Of a stretch of 32,756 bases of DNA, positions 11,576 through 30,770 are shown piece after piece. Every line of letters starts with the position of its first letter. The first letter of the stretch is position 1. A model generated the notes under the pieces. That model was given only the letters and a program-made list of their open reading frames with translations, was not told the DNA's origin and made no database searches. This DNA is from an uncultured Mycoplasmataceae bacterium. Its GTDB lineage: Bacteria; Bacillota_I; Bacilli_A; Mycoplasmatales; Mycoplasmoidaceae. The position numbers and the translations under genes are program-made. Location of the stretch: positions 1 to 32,756 of the forward strand of contig CAMREV010000008.1 in the NCBI GenBank assembly GCA_947041945.1. The letters are read 5' to 3'.

Positions 11576-11626
11576 GCTTTTTTCTCCTGAATTTACAAAA
11601 TATGAATTTTATTCAATTTAGTTTTG

Positions 11627-11632
11627 ATTATA
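11627..11632 (-). promoter_or_regulatory. -10 box for rpoB-rpoC
   Basis: TATAAT on the minus strand, 52 bases upstream of the rpoB start, in the 101-base divergent gap. Nothing resembling TTGACA lies 16-18 bases upstream of it, so it would be a -10-driven mycoplasma promoter. Confidence 0.45.
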
Positions 11633-11664
11633 ATACAAAAAGGGAAATATTGACTATTTTTTTG

Positions 11665-11670
11665 TATAAT
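11665..11670 (+). promoter_or_regulatory. -10 box immediately before a possibly leaderless gene
   Basis: TATAAT preceded by TTG and followed by only six bases (ATTTTT) before ATG 11677. A start site at the normal distance of about seven bases would coincide with the A of the ATG, giving a leaderless mRNA. No Shine-Dalgarno sequence lies between the box and the ATG. Confidence 0.5.
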
Positions 11671-11676
11671 ATTTTT

Positions 11677-13629
11677 ATGAAGATTTCAAAATATATAAAT
11701 AAGTATGATTTCGTTGATTATTACACAAAACAGCCGGAAATGTGATTTTTCACAAACTCTGAGATTCAAGCTGGTATTGACTTGGTTTTAAAAAACTTAG
11801 GAGCTAGTAAAGAGTCAATTGAAGAAGATGAGGATTCTATCAAAGAATATGATTCTTATGAATATTTTTCTCAACTTAAACTTGAAAATGCTAGTATTGA
11901 TGAAGATAACCCTTTAATTATTGAAGGTAATATAATTGATAGCCTTTCAAAAAAGAAAATTATTGAGTTATTTCAAATAGATGTTATTGTTGATTTTGAT
12001 GATGATGAATATAAATATACAAAAATGGAAGACTTTGCATTAAAGACTAAAGATTTGTTATGTTCAAATGAAAACATAATTATTTTTCAGCCAGTTTTTA
12101 TTTTTGAGAATTTAATTACAAAGCCTGATGCCTTAATAAAAAAAGGTAAGGAAATAAAAATAATTGAAACAAAAGGTACAACAACTTCTAAACTTAATCA
12201 CCTATTGGATCTTTTATTTCAAAAAAAAGTAATTGAAAAACAAGAATTTTTAAGAAATTGCTTATTTGAATATAGCCTTTGTTTGGTTTCTTATAACAAA
12301 ATGAATAAGAATGAAATTGGATTTGTTATTACAAAAAATTGCAACATATCAAAATCATCTCCCCAACTTTCAGACAAAATCAAAAAAAGAGATGATATTT
12401 CAAATGATAAAAAAATAGAACTAAAGCAAATGTTGAAAATTGGTGAGTGATTTCAAGGAGAAAATTATGATAATATTTTTCCTATACCAATTACAGAAAT
12501 TTTAAATAATGATTGAAATGCATTAACAGAAAGATATGATAATAGTAATAATCAAAAAGCAAGATTATCAATGGATAATTTTAAAAAAGAATTTTTAGAT
12601 GTACTAAATAATTTTGATTCAACAATTGAAAAATTATGAACACATAAAATGAGTATGTCAGAAAAAGATTTTCCAAAAAAATTTAAACCCTCAAAAGAAG
12701 ACAAAGGCTTTTTCAAAAACTGTAGCTATTGAGATCAATTAAAATTCATATATGGAAAAATGGGCTATTCATTATTTTTATACTCTGGTCATGTTGTTGA
12801 CCAAAAAAGTGAAAATATTGAAAAGTACAAAATTCAAGATGATTTAGATGAATATATGAAAGAAGGTAAAAGTCCTGGTTATGCTTTTAAATATCTCACA
12901 AATGAAAAAGATATTTTTATAAATGAGGTAAGTACATTCAATACTTTTCAAAAGTTGAAAAAGAACAAAATTTACTTTGACTTTGAAAGTATAAATACAG
13001 CAATTAGAAATATTGATAATTCATTACCATTTAATCAAATAGTTACTCAATGCTCAATAATAAAATGATTTGAAAATGAAAGCATTGAAGATTTGACTTG
13101 TGAAAACCTTATTATTGATCCTAAAGAAATTGACACTAATTGATTCAAAGAAATAATTGATAAAATATATTGTAGCAAAGATAGTGTTTCATATGTTGTA
13201 TATAATAAAGCATTTGAAGAAACAAGAATAAAAGAAATGGCAATTTTTATTAATGAAAAAAATTATCATATCAAAGCAAATAATATCATTTCAAATCTTT
13301 TTGATCTAGCAGATTTTTTTGATCCTAGAAAAAATTTAATTACAATCAAAGAAATTTTTGGTTATTACTCTATTAAAAAAGTATTAGCATTAATTGAAAA
13401 GAATGATAGTAATTTGTTTGATATCACTAAATCAAAAAATTATAAATCTTTAGAAATATCAAATGGCCTTGATTGTCAACAAAAAACTGTTCTTAGATTT
13501 TTTGATAAATTGAATGATGATGAATGAAAAGAAATGTCAAAAAAATTAACAGAGTATTGTGAAAATGATGTAAGGGCAATGATTGCAGTTGAGTTATATA
13601 TAAAAAAAATAATTCAGAATGAGAAATAA
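11677..13629 (+). CDS. DUF2779-type putative nuclease: PD-(D/E)XK plus DEDDy exonuclease fusion
   Basis: 650 aa, not a characterised gene. The N-terminal half carries a RecB/Cas4-like nuclease signature, PDALIKKGKEIKIIETKG, with D151, E164 and K166 as likely metal-binding and catalytic residues. The C-terminal third looks like an RNase H-fold 3'-5' exonuclease: IYFDFES (D435, E437), YNKAFEETR (N510, E514 in place of the usual Asp) and YCENDVRAM (Y627-x3-D631, the DEDDy motif III). This matches what I recall of the DUF2779 family. The cysteine cluster that binds an iron-sulfur cluster in many Cas4-like proteins is not evident; only a lone Cys in FFKNCSYWDQ stands in that region. Several TGA codons are Trp. 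It is divergent from rpoB, its stop abuts the stop of the opposite gene with no spacer, and its -10 box suggests a leaderless start. Domain assignment is by motif reading; a role in DNA or RNA processing is inference. Confidence 0.75.
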
Positions 13630-14199
13630 TTATTTCTTTTCTAAATTAAATTCTATCTTAAAACTCTTTAATAAAAATTCAGTTATTTTTTCTTCTAAAA
13701 TAATTTCTTTTATTTCGTTAAATTTTTCTTCACTTTTTAATAGTTCATTAATCGGTCTGTTTGTTTCTTTATAATATTTTTCCAAATATTCTTTTCCTTC
13801 AGCGTCTGAAACGGAAATTTTTTGTTCCTTAGCAATTTCTTTAAAAATTAAAGATTTAATAATAATTTTTTCACTAATTACTTTTATTCTATCTTTGTCT
13901 TTAACAAGGTCCATACTAAATTGTTTAGCAAATCTTGTAGAAACAGTTTCTAATTCATCTTCATCAATCGAATATGTGAAATTATTTGAAACATATTCCA
14001 TTATTGTGTTGAATGCATTTTCTTTGATTACCAATGAATTAATTCTTTTTTGAATTTCTTCATTGCTAGTTTCATTAGTTAAAAGAGATTTTAATCTTTT
14101 TTCATGCATATCAACAATTTTTGGATCTGCAAATAATTCTTCAATTACAAATTTTTTGTTGTAATCTATTTTGTTTTTTTGTTTAATTTTTGATTTCAT
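13630..14199 (-). CDS. Trigger-factor-related chaperone, MPN555-like (C-domain only)
   Basis: 189 aa, lysine- and glutamate-rich and predicted mostly helical. The segment FTYSIDEDELETVSTRFAKQ and the later KSLIFKEIAKEQKISVSDAE follow the pattern of the substrate-cradling C-terminal domain of trigger factor. No ribosome-binding or PPIase domain is present. Length and layout match the MPN555 family of M. pneumoniae, whose structure was reported to resemble trigger factor and suggested a chaperone role. It is the last gene of the smc-ftsY-ylxM run, 19 bases after the preceding gene, and its stop touches the stop of the convergent nuclease gene. The family assignment is from memory and not certain. 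Confidence 0.6.
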   Translation of the reverse strand: MKSKIKQKNKIDYNKKFVIEELFADPKIVDMHEKRLKSLLTNETSNEEIQKRINSLVIKENAFNTIMEYVSNNFTYSIDEDELETVSTRFAKQFSMDLVKDKDRIKVISEKIIIKSLIFKEIAKEQKISVSDAEGKEYLEKYYKETNRPINELLKSEEKFNEIKEIILEEKITEFLLKSFKIEFNLEKK

Positions 14200-14218: not shown

Positions 14219-14713
14219 CTAATCTAAAAAACAATCGAATTTAAATAATATGTTTGGTATTTCATCTGTCATCATATATAATTCTATTGGTTTTTTAAAT
14301 GATGTTTTACTAACAATTTTTTCTACATCTAAATTATGAACATGTGAATCAATGAACACAGAATATAATTGGTTATTTTTTAACAAATCTATGATTTCAT
14401 TTGAAGTAATAAATAATAAAGTATTTTTTTTATTCATATTATTTTCTACTCTTCAAAGATCTCAATTATTTTCAAAATTTTCATTACTAAATAATTTTAA
14501 ACTAATTTTTGAATCAATGTCATTTGCAACTTTTTCCATTAGAAGTTTTTTTGCATTTGCATTAGTAGAAACCATATGAATTTTAAAATTATTTGTTTCT
14601 CCGCACAATATTAATTTAATAATGGATTCTTTAAATAAATTGATTGTTCTTGCATCCAAGTCTTTCAATATTCCATCAATATCTATTATTATATTATCAA
14701 AACAATATTGCAT
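14219..14713 (-). CDS. Unknown 164-aa protein between ylxM and the chaperone gene, possibly degenerate HAD-like
   Basis: 164 aa when the TGA codons in NNWDLWRVENN are read as Trp; under the standard code it appears as two fragments. I do not recognise it. It begins FDNIIIDIDGIL, which resembles HAD motif I (DxDG), then has KIHMVSTNANAK (a possible motif II Ser/Thr after a beta strand), and later YSVFIDSHVHN (a strand ending in Asp). A degenerate HAD fold is a weak inference. ATG 14711-14713 follows the ylxM stop after one base, indicating translational coupling to the SRP-associated genes. Confidence 0.65.
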
Positions 14714-14714
14714 A

Positions 14715-15014
14715 TTACACCTTGTCCATTTGTATTAATTTTTTCTTAACTTCATCATCTTTGATTAAATCATACAATTTAAATCTTTGTTTCATTTTAA
14801 AAATTATTTTAAGTTTTTCTTCATAATTTTCTAACTCTAACAAAGTGATTTTAATACTATCATAAATAGCATTCTTTGTTACATTATTTATTTTTGCTAT
14901 TTCAGATAAAGAAAGGTCTTCAAAATAATGCATTTTTATATATTCAAGTTTCTTATTTGTAAGGAGTGAGCCATATGCATCAATCAACAAAGATATTTTA
15001 TGTAAGTCTTTCAT
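14715..15014 (-). CDS. ylxM: YlxM/p13-family DNA-binding, SRP-associated protein
   Basis: 99 aa. The sequence LLIDAYGSLLTNKKLEYIKMHYFEDLSLSEIA... and then NNVTKNAIYDSIK is the helix-turn-helix region typical of YlxM, a sigma-70 region 4-like protein encoded beside ffh or ftsY in Firmicutes and Mollicutes. It starts one base after the ftsY stop. An associated role in the signal recognition pathway is known from context in the family; the mechanism is poorly defined. Confidence 0.92.
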   Translation of the reverse strand: MKDLHKISLLIDAYGSLLTNKKLEYIKMHYFEDLSLSEIAKINNVTKNAIYDSIKITLLELENYEEKLKIIFKMKQRFKLYDLIKDDEVKKKLIQMDKV

Positions 15015-19081: not shown

Positions 19082-19960
19082 TTATTTAAAATTGTATCAC
19101 TTTTTATTTCTTAACATTTCAATTTCATCTTTGTATGGAGGTAAAGATTTATTTTCTTTTTCATAATATGGAGTTTCAAGAATTTTTGGTACATTTATTA
19201 ACTTTTCATTAACATATCAATTATATAAAACTTCAAATCCAATGTTGCCATATCCCAAATTTTCATGTCTGTCTTTTCTTGCACCAATTTCATTTTTTGA
19301 ATCATTTAAATGAATTGCTTTGATGTATTTAATACCAATAGTTTTTTCAAAGTCAGTCAAAACTTTATCAACATTAGAAATATCAATTCCTGATTCATGC
19401 ATATGACAAGTATCTAAACAAACACCAATTTTATCAAAATTAACTTTATCTATTATATTTTTAATTTCATTAAAATTTATGCCTAATTCAGATCCTTTGC
19501 CAGACATTGTTTCAAGCAAAATTCATACATCATTATTTGCTTTTTCCAAACAATAATTAATTCCATCAATTATTTGTTGTGTTCCTAAATTTCTATCTTG
19601 ATCCAAGCAACTACCTGGATGTAATACCAAGTATTTTAAACCAAGTTCATTTACTCTTCTTAGTTCTTGAATTAAAAAAGTTTTAGAAGATTCTCTTGTA
19701 TCAGGTTTTCCTGAAGCTAAATTAATAATGTATGGTGCATGAACAATAACATTTTCAGGTTTTATTAAGTTTTTCTTTAATAATTCATGTGCTTGCTTTG
19801 TATTTTCTGGATCCAATGGTTTTCTAATTGTATTTTGTGGAGCACCAGTATAAATCATCATACAGTTTGAACCATATGATAAAGATTCATTTACACTCCC
19901 AATAAAATAATCTTTTGCTTTGAAAGCAACATGTGATCCTATTAATAAATCTTTTTTCAT
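19082..19960 (-). CDS. nfo: Endonuclease IV (AP endonuclease)
   Basis: 292 aa, slightly longer than the usual 280 or so. It cleaves DNA 5' of abasic sites using a trinuclear zinc centre. Family motifs are visible: IGSHVAFKAKDYFIGSV near the start, VHAPYIINLASG, YLVLHPGS, GVCLDTCHMHESGIDI and KAIHLNDSKNEIGARKDRHENLG, which carry the metal-binding His, Asp and Glu. Two internal TGA codons (about 19520-19522 and 19214-19216) and one near the C-terminus (about 19097-19099) are Trp; the true stop is TAA at 19082-19084. AGGAA at 19965-19969 is the ribosome-binding site. Confidence 0.96.
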
Positions 19961-19986: not shown

Positions 19987-20019
19987 TCTTAATATTTGTT
20001 AGTATTTGATTTATGACAT

Positions 20020-20056
20020 AAAAAAAATAAATGCTTATCTCTACAAGCATTTATTT
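20020..20056 (-). terminator. Intrinsic terminator of the minus-strand RNA candidate
   Basis: Perfect 12-bp stem (20025-20036 with 20045-20056) and eight-base loop, followed on the minus strand by a U run (bases 20024-20020). No protein gene ends just upstream on the minus strand, so this terminator needs another transcript to explain it. Confidence 0.85.
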
Positions 20057-20383
20057 ATAATTCACGTATCTCGGCATTGCCGGAAGTACGCATTGTAATC
20101 CAATAAACATATATATTATTGATTAATTTTGGCTAAGACGTTCTTGGGCTTAAAGTTATAAATATATTACAAATAACTCCACAAAAGATAACCCTAGTAA
20201 AACAATCAAAGTCAGATCAGTAGTAAAACTTACCAAATATAGATTCCACATGTATCAATTTTAATTGGCCAGAATTAAAAAATCAACAAACAAAATTCTA
20301 AATCGACATAAAAATTGTATCGATGCACAATGAATTACGATCTGACTAAGATGTTTTTCTAAATTTATTTTTATTCGGTTTCC
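20020..20383 (-). ncRNA. Candidate structured non-coding RNA, about 360 nt, unidentified
   Basis: Minus-strand transcript inferred from a promoter-like pair at 20387-20416 and a strong terminator at 20020-20056. The 5' arm 20363-20339 pairs with 20218-20192 in a long interrupted helix. Its core AGTCAGATC / GATCTGACT is nine perfect base pairs, followed by a 2x2 loop and further pairing. A closing helix joins 20378-20370 to 20107-20100 (one bulge). Inside are an 8-bp hairpin with a six-base loop (20259-20280) and, near the 3' end, a GC-richer hairpin CGTA...CGGC-AAT-GCCG...TACG (20065-20090). The size suggests RNase P RNA or tmRNA, but neither the GAGGAAAGTCC core nor the GGTTCGA/CCA end is present on either strand. 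No SRP RNA core is seen. Function unknown. Confidence 0.5.
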
Positions 20384-20386
20384 TAT

Positions 20387-20416
20387 AATATACCTATATC
20401 ATAACTGGAAATTCAA
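20387..20416 (-). promoter_or_regulatory. Promoter for the structured RNA candidate
   Basis: On the minus strand TTGAAT (20416-20411), an 18-base spacer, then TATATT (20392-20387). This is one of the few promoters in the window with both elements. The predicted start falls near 20380-20383, at the GGAAACC that opens the closing helix. The -35 box overlaps the left side of a 7-bp inverted repeat, TGGAAAT / ATTTCCA (20406-20412 and 20429-20435). Confidence 0.45.
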
Positions 20417-20588
20417 ATCGAGGCTAGGATTTCCAATTAAAATTAAGCTAAAACCAAAAATTAAAACTTAGCAAAAACATAATATATTGTTCATTAATTA
20501 TTCATTGCGCATTAATATTATATCAACTTTCTATAAAAAATATCTTTTTTTTAAAAAATAATGATAAATTTTAATTAAAGAGAATTAA
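20417..20588. other. AT-rich spacer between the RNA candidate and pncB
   Basis: No open frame of note. It holds one half of an inverted repeat (TGGAAAT 20406-20412 / ATTTCCA 20429-20435), a weak GCTAA...TTAGC hairpin (about 20447-20472), and a -10-like TATAAA at 20532-20537 that could serve pncB. Together with the RNA candidate it makes up the only gene-free stretch longer than 300 bases in the window. Confidence 0.4.
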
Positions 20589-21620
20589 ATGAAATTAATA
20601 AAATATAGTTCAAAATATTTTTTGTCTGCACAAAAAATTATAGAAGAAAACAAAATAGGAAAAAAATCTACTATTAGGTTTTTTTGTTTTCATAATGATA
20701 CATGTATTTCTGGTATTAATTATTTAAAAAAGTTAATTGAAGATGAAAAAAGAGAGAATAGGTTAAATAGCATTGTTGTTTATTCTGTTGAAGAAGGAAC
20801 AATAGTTGATGCATTTGAAACAGTAATGATAATAGAGGGTTTCTATTATGAATTTGCATATTTAGAAAATATAGTTGATGGATTATTAAGCAGAATGTCT
20901 TCTGTTGCAACAAATTGTTTAGAGTATATAAAATTTGCAAAAAATAAGAAAATTATATTTATGGCAGATAGAAGTGATTTTTACTTGAATCAACCAATAG
21001 ATGGGTATGCTGCATATGTTGGTGGAATGAAAAATTTTGTCACAAAAGGCTTGATGGATCTTTTGCCAAGTGATAATGATGCTGAATATTCAGGAACTAT
21101 GTCTCATTCACTTATTCAACAATGTCAAGGGGAATTACTTTTGGCAATTGAATTATTCTCTAATACATTTCCAAATGAAAAAATAATTGCATTAATTGAT
21201 TATCATAATGATTGTTTATCTGAAATTGATAAATTGGCAAAGTCAAAGTTTAAAAATAATATTTATGCAGTAAGGGTAGATACTTCAAAATCACTTATTG
21301 ATAATTGTTTAATTGAAAATAAAGATAATAATGAATATTATGGTGTTAATCATTATTTAATATCTAAAATTAGAAACAAATTAGACAGTCTAGAAATGAA
21401 GAATGTTAAAATTATTGCTTCTTCTGGAATTGATTTAAATAAAATAAAAGAGTTTGAATCTTTAAATACACCAGTTGATATATATGGTATTGGTAGCGCA
21501 TTAATTGCAAGACGTTGTCATTTTGCTGCAGATTTAATAAAAATTGAAAATAAATATGAAAGTAAGTTTGGTAGAAATATTTCAGTTGAAAAAGACTTTA
21601 AAAAATTAACTAAATGATAA
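20589..21620 (+). CDS. pncB: Nicotinate phosphoribosyltransferase
   Basis: 343 aa. It converts nicotinate and PRPP to nicotinate mononucleotide, the first step of NAD salvage. Visible motifs include EGTIVDAFETVMIIEG, the conserved SGTMSHSLIQ, an ALIDYHND strand end, VRVDTS, IIASSGIDLNKI, and the phosphate-binding YGIGSALIAR near the C-terminus. The frame reads ...LTK-TGA-TAA; with TGA as Trp the stop is TAA at 21618-21620, one residue later than under the standard code. AAAGAGA at 20577-20583 is the likely ribosome-binding site. Together with nadE at 27270-28004 it gives a salvage route from nicotinate; the adenylyltransferase step is not in this window. Confidence 0.92.
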
Positions 21621-29290: not shown

Positions 29291-29908
29291 TTATTCCCTA
29301 ACTTCCCAAGTTGTTTCTTTGTCTTTTTTTACCTTGTCAATAATACTTTTTTGATTTTTGATTATTTCATCATTTTCATCATTTTCATTTTTGAAATCTT
29401 TGAAGAAACTAGAAACATTTCTTGACCTTAAAATAATTATATTAACAATAAAATTAAAAATAAAAAAAAATATTATTGAAAAAACAATTATGAATATAAA
29501 TTTGCCTGTAATTACTATGTCAATTAGAGAAGTATCATTAGTAATACTAGGCATAATTCCTGTAAGTAATACACCAATTCAAAAACCACAAGACATATAA
29601 AGAAATGGTATTATGTCCAACTCCATTATTTTAAAAGCAAGCTTACCAATTAAAATAATAACAATTGGTAAAAGCAAAAGTAAAAAATAAACTAAATAAA
29701 ACTCATAATTATAAGTCAGTGAAATTTGATTAAATCAAATTTCTTTAATGCCTATATTGATGTTATTATTTTCAAATAAAATAACTCTTCCTTCACCCAA
29801 AAGAATTCATATAAGACCATAAGGTACAAAAATAAAAAAAAGCGAAGTTAAAGAAGTTACTATCGGTTTTGTTTTAAATTCAATATTTTGTGAGCTAAAT
29901 CTCTTCAT
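29291..29908 (-). CDS. Hypothetical membrane protein with four predicted TM segments
   Basis: 205 aa when three internal TGA codons are Trp. I do not recognise the family. Hydrophobic segments lie at about residues 17-37, 67-90, 98-120 and 128-155; a charged cytoplasmic-looking tail follows (NENDENDEIIKNQ...). The start at 29906-29908 is chosen as the first in-frame ATG of the run; only a weak GGTG precedes it. It is the first gene of the obg-nadE-pepF-pgi-miaA-hemW run, three bases from obg. Confidence 0.75.
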
Positions 29909-29973
29909 AAACACCAGAAACAAGTAAAATCTTAATTTATTTTTAATTCTTTACTATTATTATTCTTTCTATT

Positions 29974-30014: not shown

Positions 30015-30770
30015 ATGAATAAATTATTAAACATGGCAAATTATTTCAATAAAATTGAAGAAAAAGAAAAAGCATATGGTGTTTTTTCTTATGATAAAAA
30101 TATTGAAAAAGTATTATCTAACTTTCAAGAGTTTCCTCATGCAATCTTAATCTCTTTCATTGTTGATGATGAAACAGACTCTGGAATGGCAGAAGAGACT
30201 CCTCTTCTAATCAAGAATGCTTTAGGTAACTTAGAAATAGATGAAATGTCAAAATTGCAATTAAGTGATTTAGTAAAACTTTTTGTTGAAAACAATATAA
30301 CAAATGAACCAGAAAAAAATGCTAATTTAATCTTTGAAATGCTTTCAAAGATTAATTCAAAATATAATGGTAAAGCAAATAATATTTGAAATGATACTCC
30401 TTCTAGTCAAGAATTAAAAAGAAGATTGCTTGAATTCAAAGGAATGAATGCAAGAAAAGCAAACTTATTAGCATTAGTTCTTGTAAATAAATTTAAAGTT
30501 AAATTAAGTGAATATGCATCAATAAATATTTCAAATGACAAGAACGTAAGAAAAGCAATGTTAGAGATGAAATTAATAGATGAAGATTCTTCATATGATG
30601 ACATGAAAAAAATATGCTCAACTTTAAATGTAAATTATCCAGGTGTATTTGATTCGTTTTTCTGATCAATTGGGGAATATTTCTTCAATTCTAAACCTGA
30701 TTTTAAATTTGGAATTAAAGATGAAGATTTTATCAATTCTTGTCTAATGATATCTTTAAAATACATATAA
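30015..30770 (+). CDS. HhH-GPD-like protein (endonuclease III-related), function uncertain
   Basis: 251 aa. The segment RRLLEFKGMNARKANLLALVL resembles the helix-hairpin-helix of base-excision DNA glycosylases. The following SINISNDKNVRKAMLEMKLID sits where the catalytic Asp region (VDTHVxR-like) lies; D174 in NDKNVRK is the candidate catalytic Asp. The N-terminal helical half (ILISFIVDDETDSG...ALGNLEID) matches the layout of the same fold. No four-cysteine iron-sulfur loop is present. A strong GGAGG at 30006-30010 lies four bases before the ATG. TGA in NNIWND and SFFWSIG is Trp. A repair role is inferred; it could also be a non-catalytic DNA-binding relative. Confidence 0.6.

Follow-up and report, generated by a model that had tools for sequence, protein, structure and literature searches.

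The 628-nt spacer between nfo (minus strand, 19082-19960) and pncB (plus strand, 20589-21620) raises the question of whether it holds an RNA gene and, if so, of which kind. The window, the whole 32,756-nt stretch that was analysed, is contig C8 of a 661-kb draft genome (G000; 12 contigs, genetic code 4). No other spacer in the window comes near this length: the second longest real one measures 194 nt. An apparent 302-nt spacer upstream of ftsY, easily taken for a real one, is filled by ylxM (UPF0122; 14715-15014, minus strand, 99 aa), which lies directly upstream of ftsY.

Elsewhere in the window, a bidirectional terminator with T runs on either side (2647-2670) separates the convergent ligA and rpsI genes. 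The divergent rpoB gene lies 26 nt from the start of the gene for a 675-aa protein with a DUF2779 domain (11602-13629, plus strand). The ORFs at 13630-14199, 14219-14713 and 29291-29923 (all minus strand) and at 30015-30770 (plus strand) have no Pfam match at E 1e-5.

Judged from its sequence and from those of its relatives, the nfo-pncB spacer can be said with high confidence to contain a real, conserved gene for a structured non-coding RNA. Very probably, this gene is an independent, leftward-transcribed unit for an RNA of ~490 nt, with an extended -10 promoter and an intrinsic terminator. Its predicted features, in the direction of transcription, are as follows.

20517-20525, minus strand: extended -10 promoter TGATATAAT (TGN plus Pribnow box), a perfect match, 6 nt before the predicted start
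20019-20510, minus strand: structured ncRNA gene of ~490 nt, predicted +1 at 20510 (from fold, homologues and non-coding frames)
20467-20477, minus strand: 5' strand of long-range helix P2 (UUUUUGCUAAG), pairing with 20127-20137
20454-20460, minus strand: 5' strand of long-range helix P3 (UUUUUGG), pairing with 20141-20147
20402-20439, minus strand: hairpin PA, 11 bp, loop CUCGAU at 20422-20417
20314-20331, minus strand: hairpin PB, loop AUCGAU at 20324-20319 with a putative kissing contact to the complementary PA loop
20259-20280, minus strand: hairpin PC, loop UGGCC at 20271-20267, palindromic at its GGCC core and possibly used for dimerisation
20141-20147, minus strand: 3' strand of P3 (CCAAGAA), pairing with 20454-20460
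20127-20137, minus strand: 3' strand of P2 (CUUAGCCAAAA), pairing with 20467-20477
20025-20056, minus strand: intrinsic terminator hairpin, U-tract at 20024-20017, with compensatory changes in relatives

Transcription signals and non-coding nature

The earlier note had pointed to a strong minus-strand intrinsic terminator without a coding gene upstream, and this terminator is real. The hairpin at 20056-20025 is followed by eight T and has a folding energy of -12.9 kcal/mol (z -4.5); no coding gene precedes it on the minus strand. It is one of just two intergenic terminators found by an energy scan. The promoter that had been placed at ~20416-20387 is given up: its 9/12 match is at chance level (8 sites versus 7.2 expected). 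A better candidate is TGATATAAT at 20525-20517, and the string TGNTATAAT occurs only there in the window, on either strand. This promoter places the predicted +1 at 20510 and replaces the former length of ~360 nt with ~490 nt. In M. pneumoniae, promoters with a TGN-extended -10 element and no clear -35 box are active (PMC5573727).

Both strands of the locus fold well (z -5.6 and -5.1), and the RNA was assigned to the minus strand because of its promoter, its terminator and its homologues. The G.U pairs that had been taken as strand evidence (7:1 in the inner helix) lose their significance once the high U and G content of the strand is considered. Position 20510 to 20019 of the minus strand folds at -121 kcal/mol (z -5.6 versus shuffles), and a 449-nt core is the lowest-folding of 144 windows taken from both strands. 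Codon scores range from -0.6 to -1.4 over all six frames, whereas 450-nt pieces cut from genes score +0.22 or more. A Pfam search of the six frames of the locus returned zero matches, by which a decayed protein gene was rejected. No ORF common to the three homologous RNAs described below was found. By these criteria, the locus is non-coding.

Homologues and fold

Two other genomes of the genus, G001 and G002, were compared (drafts, 77-78% complete). Both contain a colinear homologue, of 482 nt in G001 and 490 nt in G002, compared to 492 nt in G000. The three RNAs are 58-67% identical to each other, and promoter layout, element order and terminator are kept. The aligned -10 boxes are TGCTACAAT in G001 and TAATATAAT in G002; in each case, 6 nt separate the box from GCGCAAU, the RNA start common to all three species. 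A single-sequence covariance model (R1) gave a weak match (E = 2.9) at the terminator of the G001 copy, on contig C13, and homology was then established by pairwise alignment. The whole RNA aligns, down to the terminator at its end, with a local score of 136 against 56 ± 8 for shuffles (maximum 86, n=300). Against 327 real stretches of the sister species, the mean was 54 (sd 12) and the next best score 89. The homologue on contig C1 of G002 was detected with a two-sequence profile (nhmmer, E 3.4e-45, in a sample of 20 of ~140 contigs).

Between G000 and G001, RNase P RNA is 80% identical in its aligned part and 4.5S RNA 77%, so that the studied RNA evolves faster than these two. The earlier note had proposed an alignment of the nfo-pncB spacer across relatives. 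In G001 and G002, synteny does not extend to the spacers adjacent to nfo and pncB, and these do not contain the RNA (for pncB of G002, only an upstream stub is available); the homologues were found at other loci.

Beyond the genus, an R1 search of up to 320 genomes returned nothing convincing. This model also missed true homologues within the genus; what it covers is the inner part of the RNA, where conservation is lowest, and its negative result therefore informs little on distribution. Searched as DNA in 59 relatives, the locus gave AT-rich noise alone. With a three-sequence nhmmer profile, nothing was found in G011 (~0.66 Mb searched), in G018 (~0.36 Mb searched) or in a few short pieces of other genomes. 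Pattern scans of viral contigs with two motifs returned 62 loci for one, none of them matching the profile, and zero for the other.

The predicted fold contains the long-range helices P2 and P3, which are present in the three species with compensatory changes and close a domain of ~300-330 nt. In an unedited MAFFT alignment, these helices occupy columns 81-90/431-440 and 97-103/421-427, and five pairs are changed on both sides. After hand registration of all the conserved elements, 12 of their 34 pairs are changed on both sides and 97% of the cells are paired (shuffles, 0 of 500; slid controls, 30-51%). This registration used the predicted arms of only three sequences and thus favours structure, which makes the covariation of the unedited alignment the more independent evidence. 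Against shuffled alignment columns, the consensus fold of two sequences stood out only modestly (z -1.5 to -2.5). The fold z of the three RNAs is -5.6 for G000 and -4.3 and -5.3 for its relatives.

Within this domain, hairpin PA has a pair probability of 0.87-0.97 in each species despite differing arms, and all of the counted pairs (7/7) are changed on both sides. The PB loop reads AUCGAU in G000 and UUCGAG and AUCGAG in the relatives, and its complementarity to the PA loop is kept in the three species, over 5, 6 and 7 bases in G000, G001 and G002, respectively. The pair probability of PB is 0.99 and 0.88 in the relatives and 0.11 in G000. A 5' hairpin (GCGCAAUA/UAUUGCGC) is likewise perfect in the relatives and weak in G000, with G.U pairs and one C.A. 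Part of the modelled fold would thus differ, or be eroded, in G000. The predicted fold lets the start of the G000 RNA pair with 20088-20092 instead, which may be due to chance. UGGCC is found at nt 240, 230 and 230 of the three RNAs, in stems that differ, and the GGCC loop of G000 lies in a region of low pair probability (0.37).

Two helices described in the earlier note fared differently. The inner helix 20192-20218/20339-20363 has a high predicted probability in G000 and is not common to the relatives (5-nt gap); it is species-specific. The closing helix 20100-20107/20370-20378 is absent from the relatives and from the best fold, in which 20100-20107 pairs with 20496-20490. Conservation and covariation in relatives, which the earlier note had proposed as a check, were both found: the homologues extend from promoter to terminator in the two species and carry compensatory changes.

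Each of the three RNAs thus has its own promoter and terminator, is non-coding and conserved, and carries compensatory changes (n=3 sequences). The former reading of a stable ncRNA gene, possibly a new mollicute RNA, is supported by these homologues, by the covariation and by the lack of an Rfam match, and we propose that the three RNAs form a new family of large, structured, standalone RNAs at the level of the genus.

Neighbourhoods and alternative readings

The homologues have different neighbours: nfo and pncB in G000, a tracrRNA-like transcript and cas9 in G001, and exonuclease and lipoprotein genes in G002. An unlikely but not negligible reading is that of an RNA belonging to a mobile or phage-derived element that moves between loci, as ROOL and GOLLD. 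Three neighbourhoods in three species, one of them beside a phage-type exonuclease, are in agreement with it. However, the locus is present in a single copy in the G000 genome, where no flanking repeat or integrase was seen, and phage and plasmid records contain no match to the RNA. Its neighbours in G000 are housekeeping genes, and ordinary rearrangement would also account for the changed neighbourhoods, nfo and pncB themselves not being syntenic. In G002, the homologue lies between the gene of a RecE/YqaJ-type exonuclease and that of a lipoprotein with a transglutaminase domain. At L131:4388-6896 (contig C1), next to the RNA copy, this exonuclease is followed by a 557-aa protein that has no match in Pfam, PHROGs, PADLOC or PDB.

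A CRISPR-Cas9-associated RNA, i.e., a long tracrRNA or a Cas9-linked regulator that has no adjacent cas9 in G000, is distinctly less probable. It is suggested by the G001 homologue (L064:1064-1545), which shares its strand with cas9 and precedes this gene by ~90 nt, the Cas9 ORF starting at 1637. This Cas9 was identified by PADLOC (E 2.4e-23), and its gene (L064:1637-3001, corresponding to G001:C13:7905-9270) is cut by the contig end. Against this reading, a transcript of tracrRNA size, separate and ending at a terminator of its own, is predicted further upstream in G001 (L064:~609-761), so that the studied homologue stands between it and cas9. Among the three species, adjacency to cas9 is found in G001 alone, the G002 copy having the exonuclease and lipoprotein genes as neighbours. 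Tblastn revealed no relative of Cas9 in the window, and no CRISPR-like repeats were present near weak matches of the locus in its own genome.

It is very improbable that the RNA is a highly divergent member of the RNase P RNA, tmRNA, 4.5S RNA or 6S RNA class. RNase P RNA and tmRNA of mycoplasmas are close to it in size and likewise form transcription units of their own. However, normal genes of three of these classes are present elsewhere in the genome: RNase P RNA (RF00011) at G000:C10:7064-7401, tmRNA (RF00023) at G000:C7:18319-18713 and 4.5S/SRP RNA (RF00169) at G000:C7:28485-28577. The locus matches none of their covariance models, and ARAGORN predicts no tmRNA there, in agreement with the earlier note, which had set RNase P RNA and tmRNA aside. 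6S RNA (RF00013), which is also long and mostly paired with its ends close together, was undetected in 39 genomes (G000 and 38 relatives); its Rfam model has 187 positions, whereas the studied RNA is a multi-hairpin domain with paired loops. The Rfam check that had been suggested was run on the three sequences at gathering and permissive thresholds (E up to 10) and returned chance-level matches alone.

A chance fold of a decayed inverted duplication, of a foldback element or of a pseudogene can practically be dismissed: the arms of the locus are ~70% complementary, both strands fold well and the locus lies at a rearrangement junction, yet this reading is contradicted by promoter-to-terminator homologues with compensatory changes in two species and by the absence of a protein family in every frame.

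Possible function and comparison with known RNAs

For the standalone ncRNA gene, the following course can be proposed. Transcription would start at the extended -10 promoter, run leftward and stop at the intrinsic terminator, yielding a presumably stable RNA. P2 and P3 would join its ends, and the PA and PB loops (CUCGAU/AUCGAG) may kiss. The RNA probably acts in trans as a structural RNA, since it has its own promoter and terminator in each species and lies in different neighbourhoods. The conserved palindromic UGGCC loop is suggestive of a homo-oligomer in this model. We would guess that it lets two molecules dimerise and that the RNA serves as an RNA-only or RNA-protein scaffold, as OLE, ROOL and GOLLD; such a dimer or scaffold function is speculative, at perhaps one chance in a few. 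Slightly less doubtful, and still tentative, is the broader reading of a new class: a large standalone RNA machine or scaffold with a kissing-loop fold and a GGCC-loop dimer in a gene-poor lineage.

An RNA of ~490 nt whose fold is kept in every known species of the genus, in genomes below 1 Mb and in differing neighbourhoods, suggests a function that repays the expense of keeping it. In M. pneumoniae, the set of essential functional RNAs consists of rRNA, tRNA, 4.5S RNA, RNase P RNA and tmRNA; the remaining ncRNAs are for the most part considered to be transcriptional noise that the cell can do without (PMC12494982). The studied RNA resembles the annotated ncRNAs of that species as a predicted non-coding transcript of a reduced genome; unlike these, it is intergenic, structured and conserved.

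OLE, ROOL and GOLLD are large ornate bacterial RNAs whose complex folds involve long-range helices and kissing loops; OLE assembles into RNA-only dimers, and ROOL and GOLLD are often phage-linked, without known function (PMC12286853). The studied RNA has no sequence match to these families, and none of the three homologues matches their Rfam covariance models at E up to 10. It is also shorter than many GOLLD members (~490 nt versus >800 nt), its oligomerisation is putative, and no tRNA was found in the window. It would add one family to the small group of large, structured RNAs of bacteria that have no known function, and the loop contacts predicted for it offer a direct way to test structure and dimerisation. 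What it shares with OLE, ROOL and GOLLD is a large, standalone and non-coding nature, together with a predicted fold with closed ends, in which one loop is palindromic and two others are complementary to each other.
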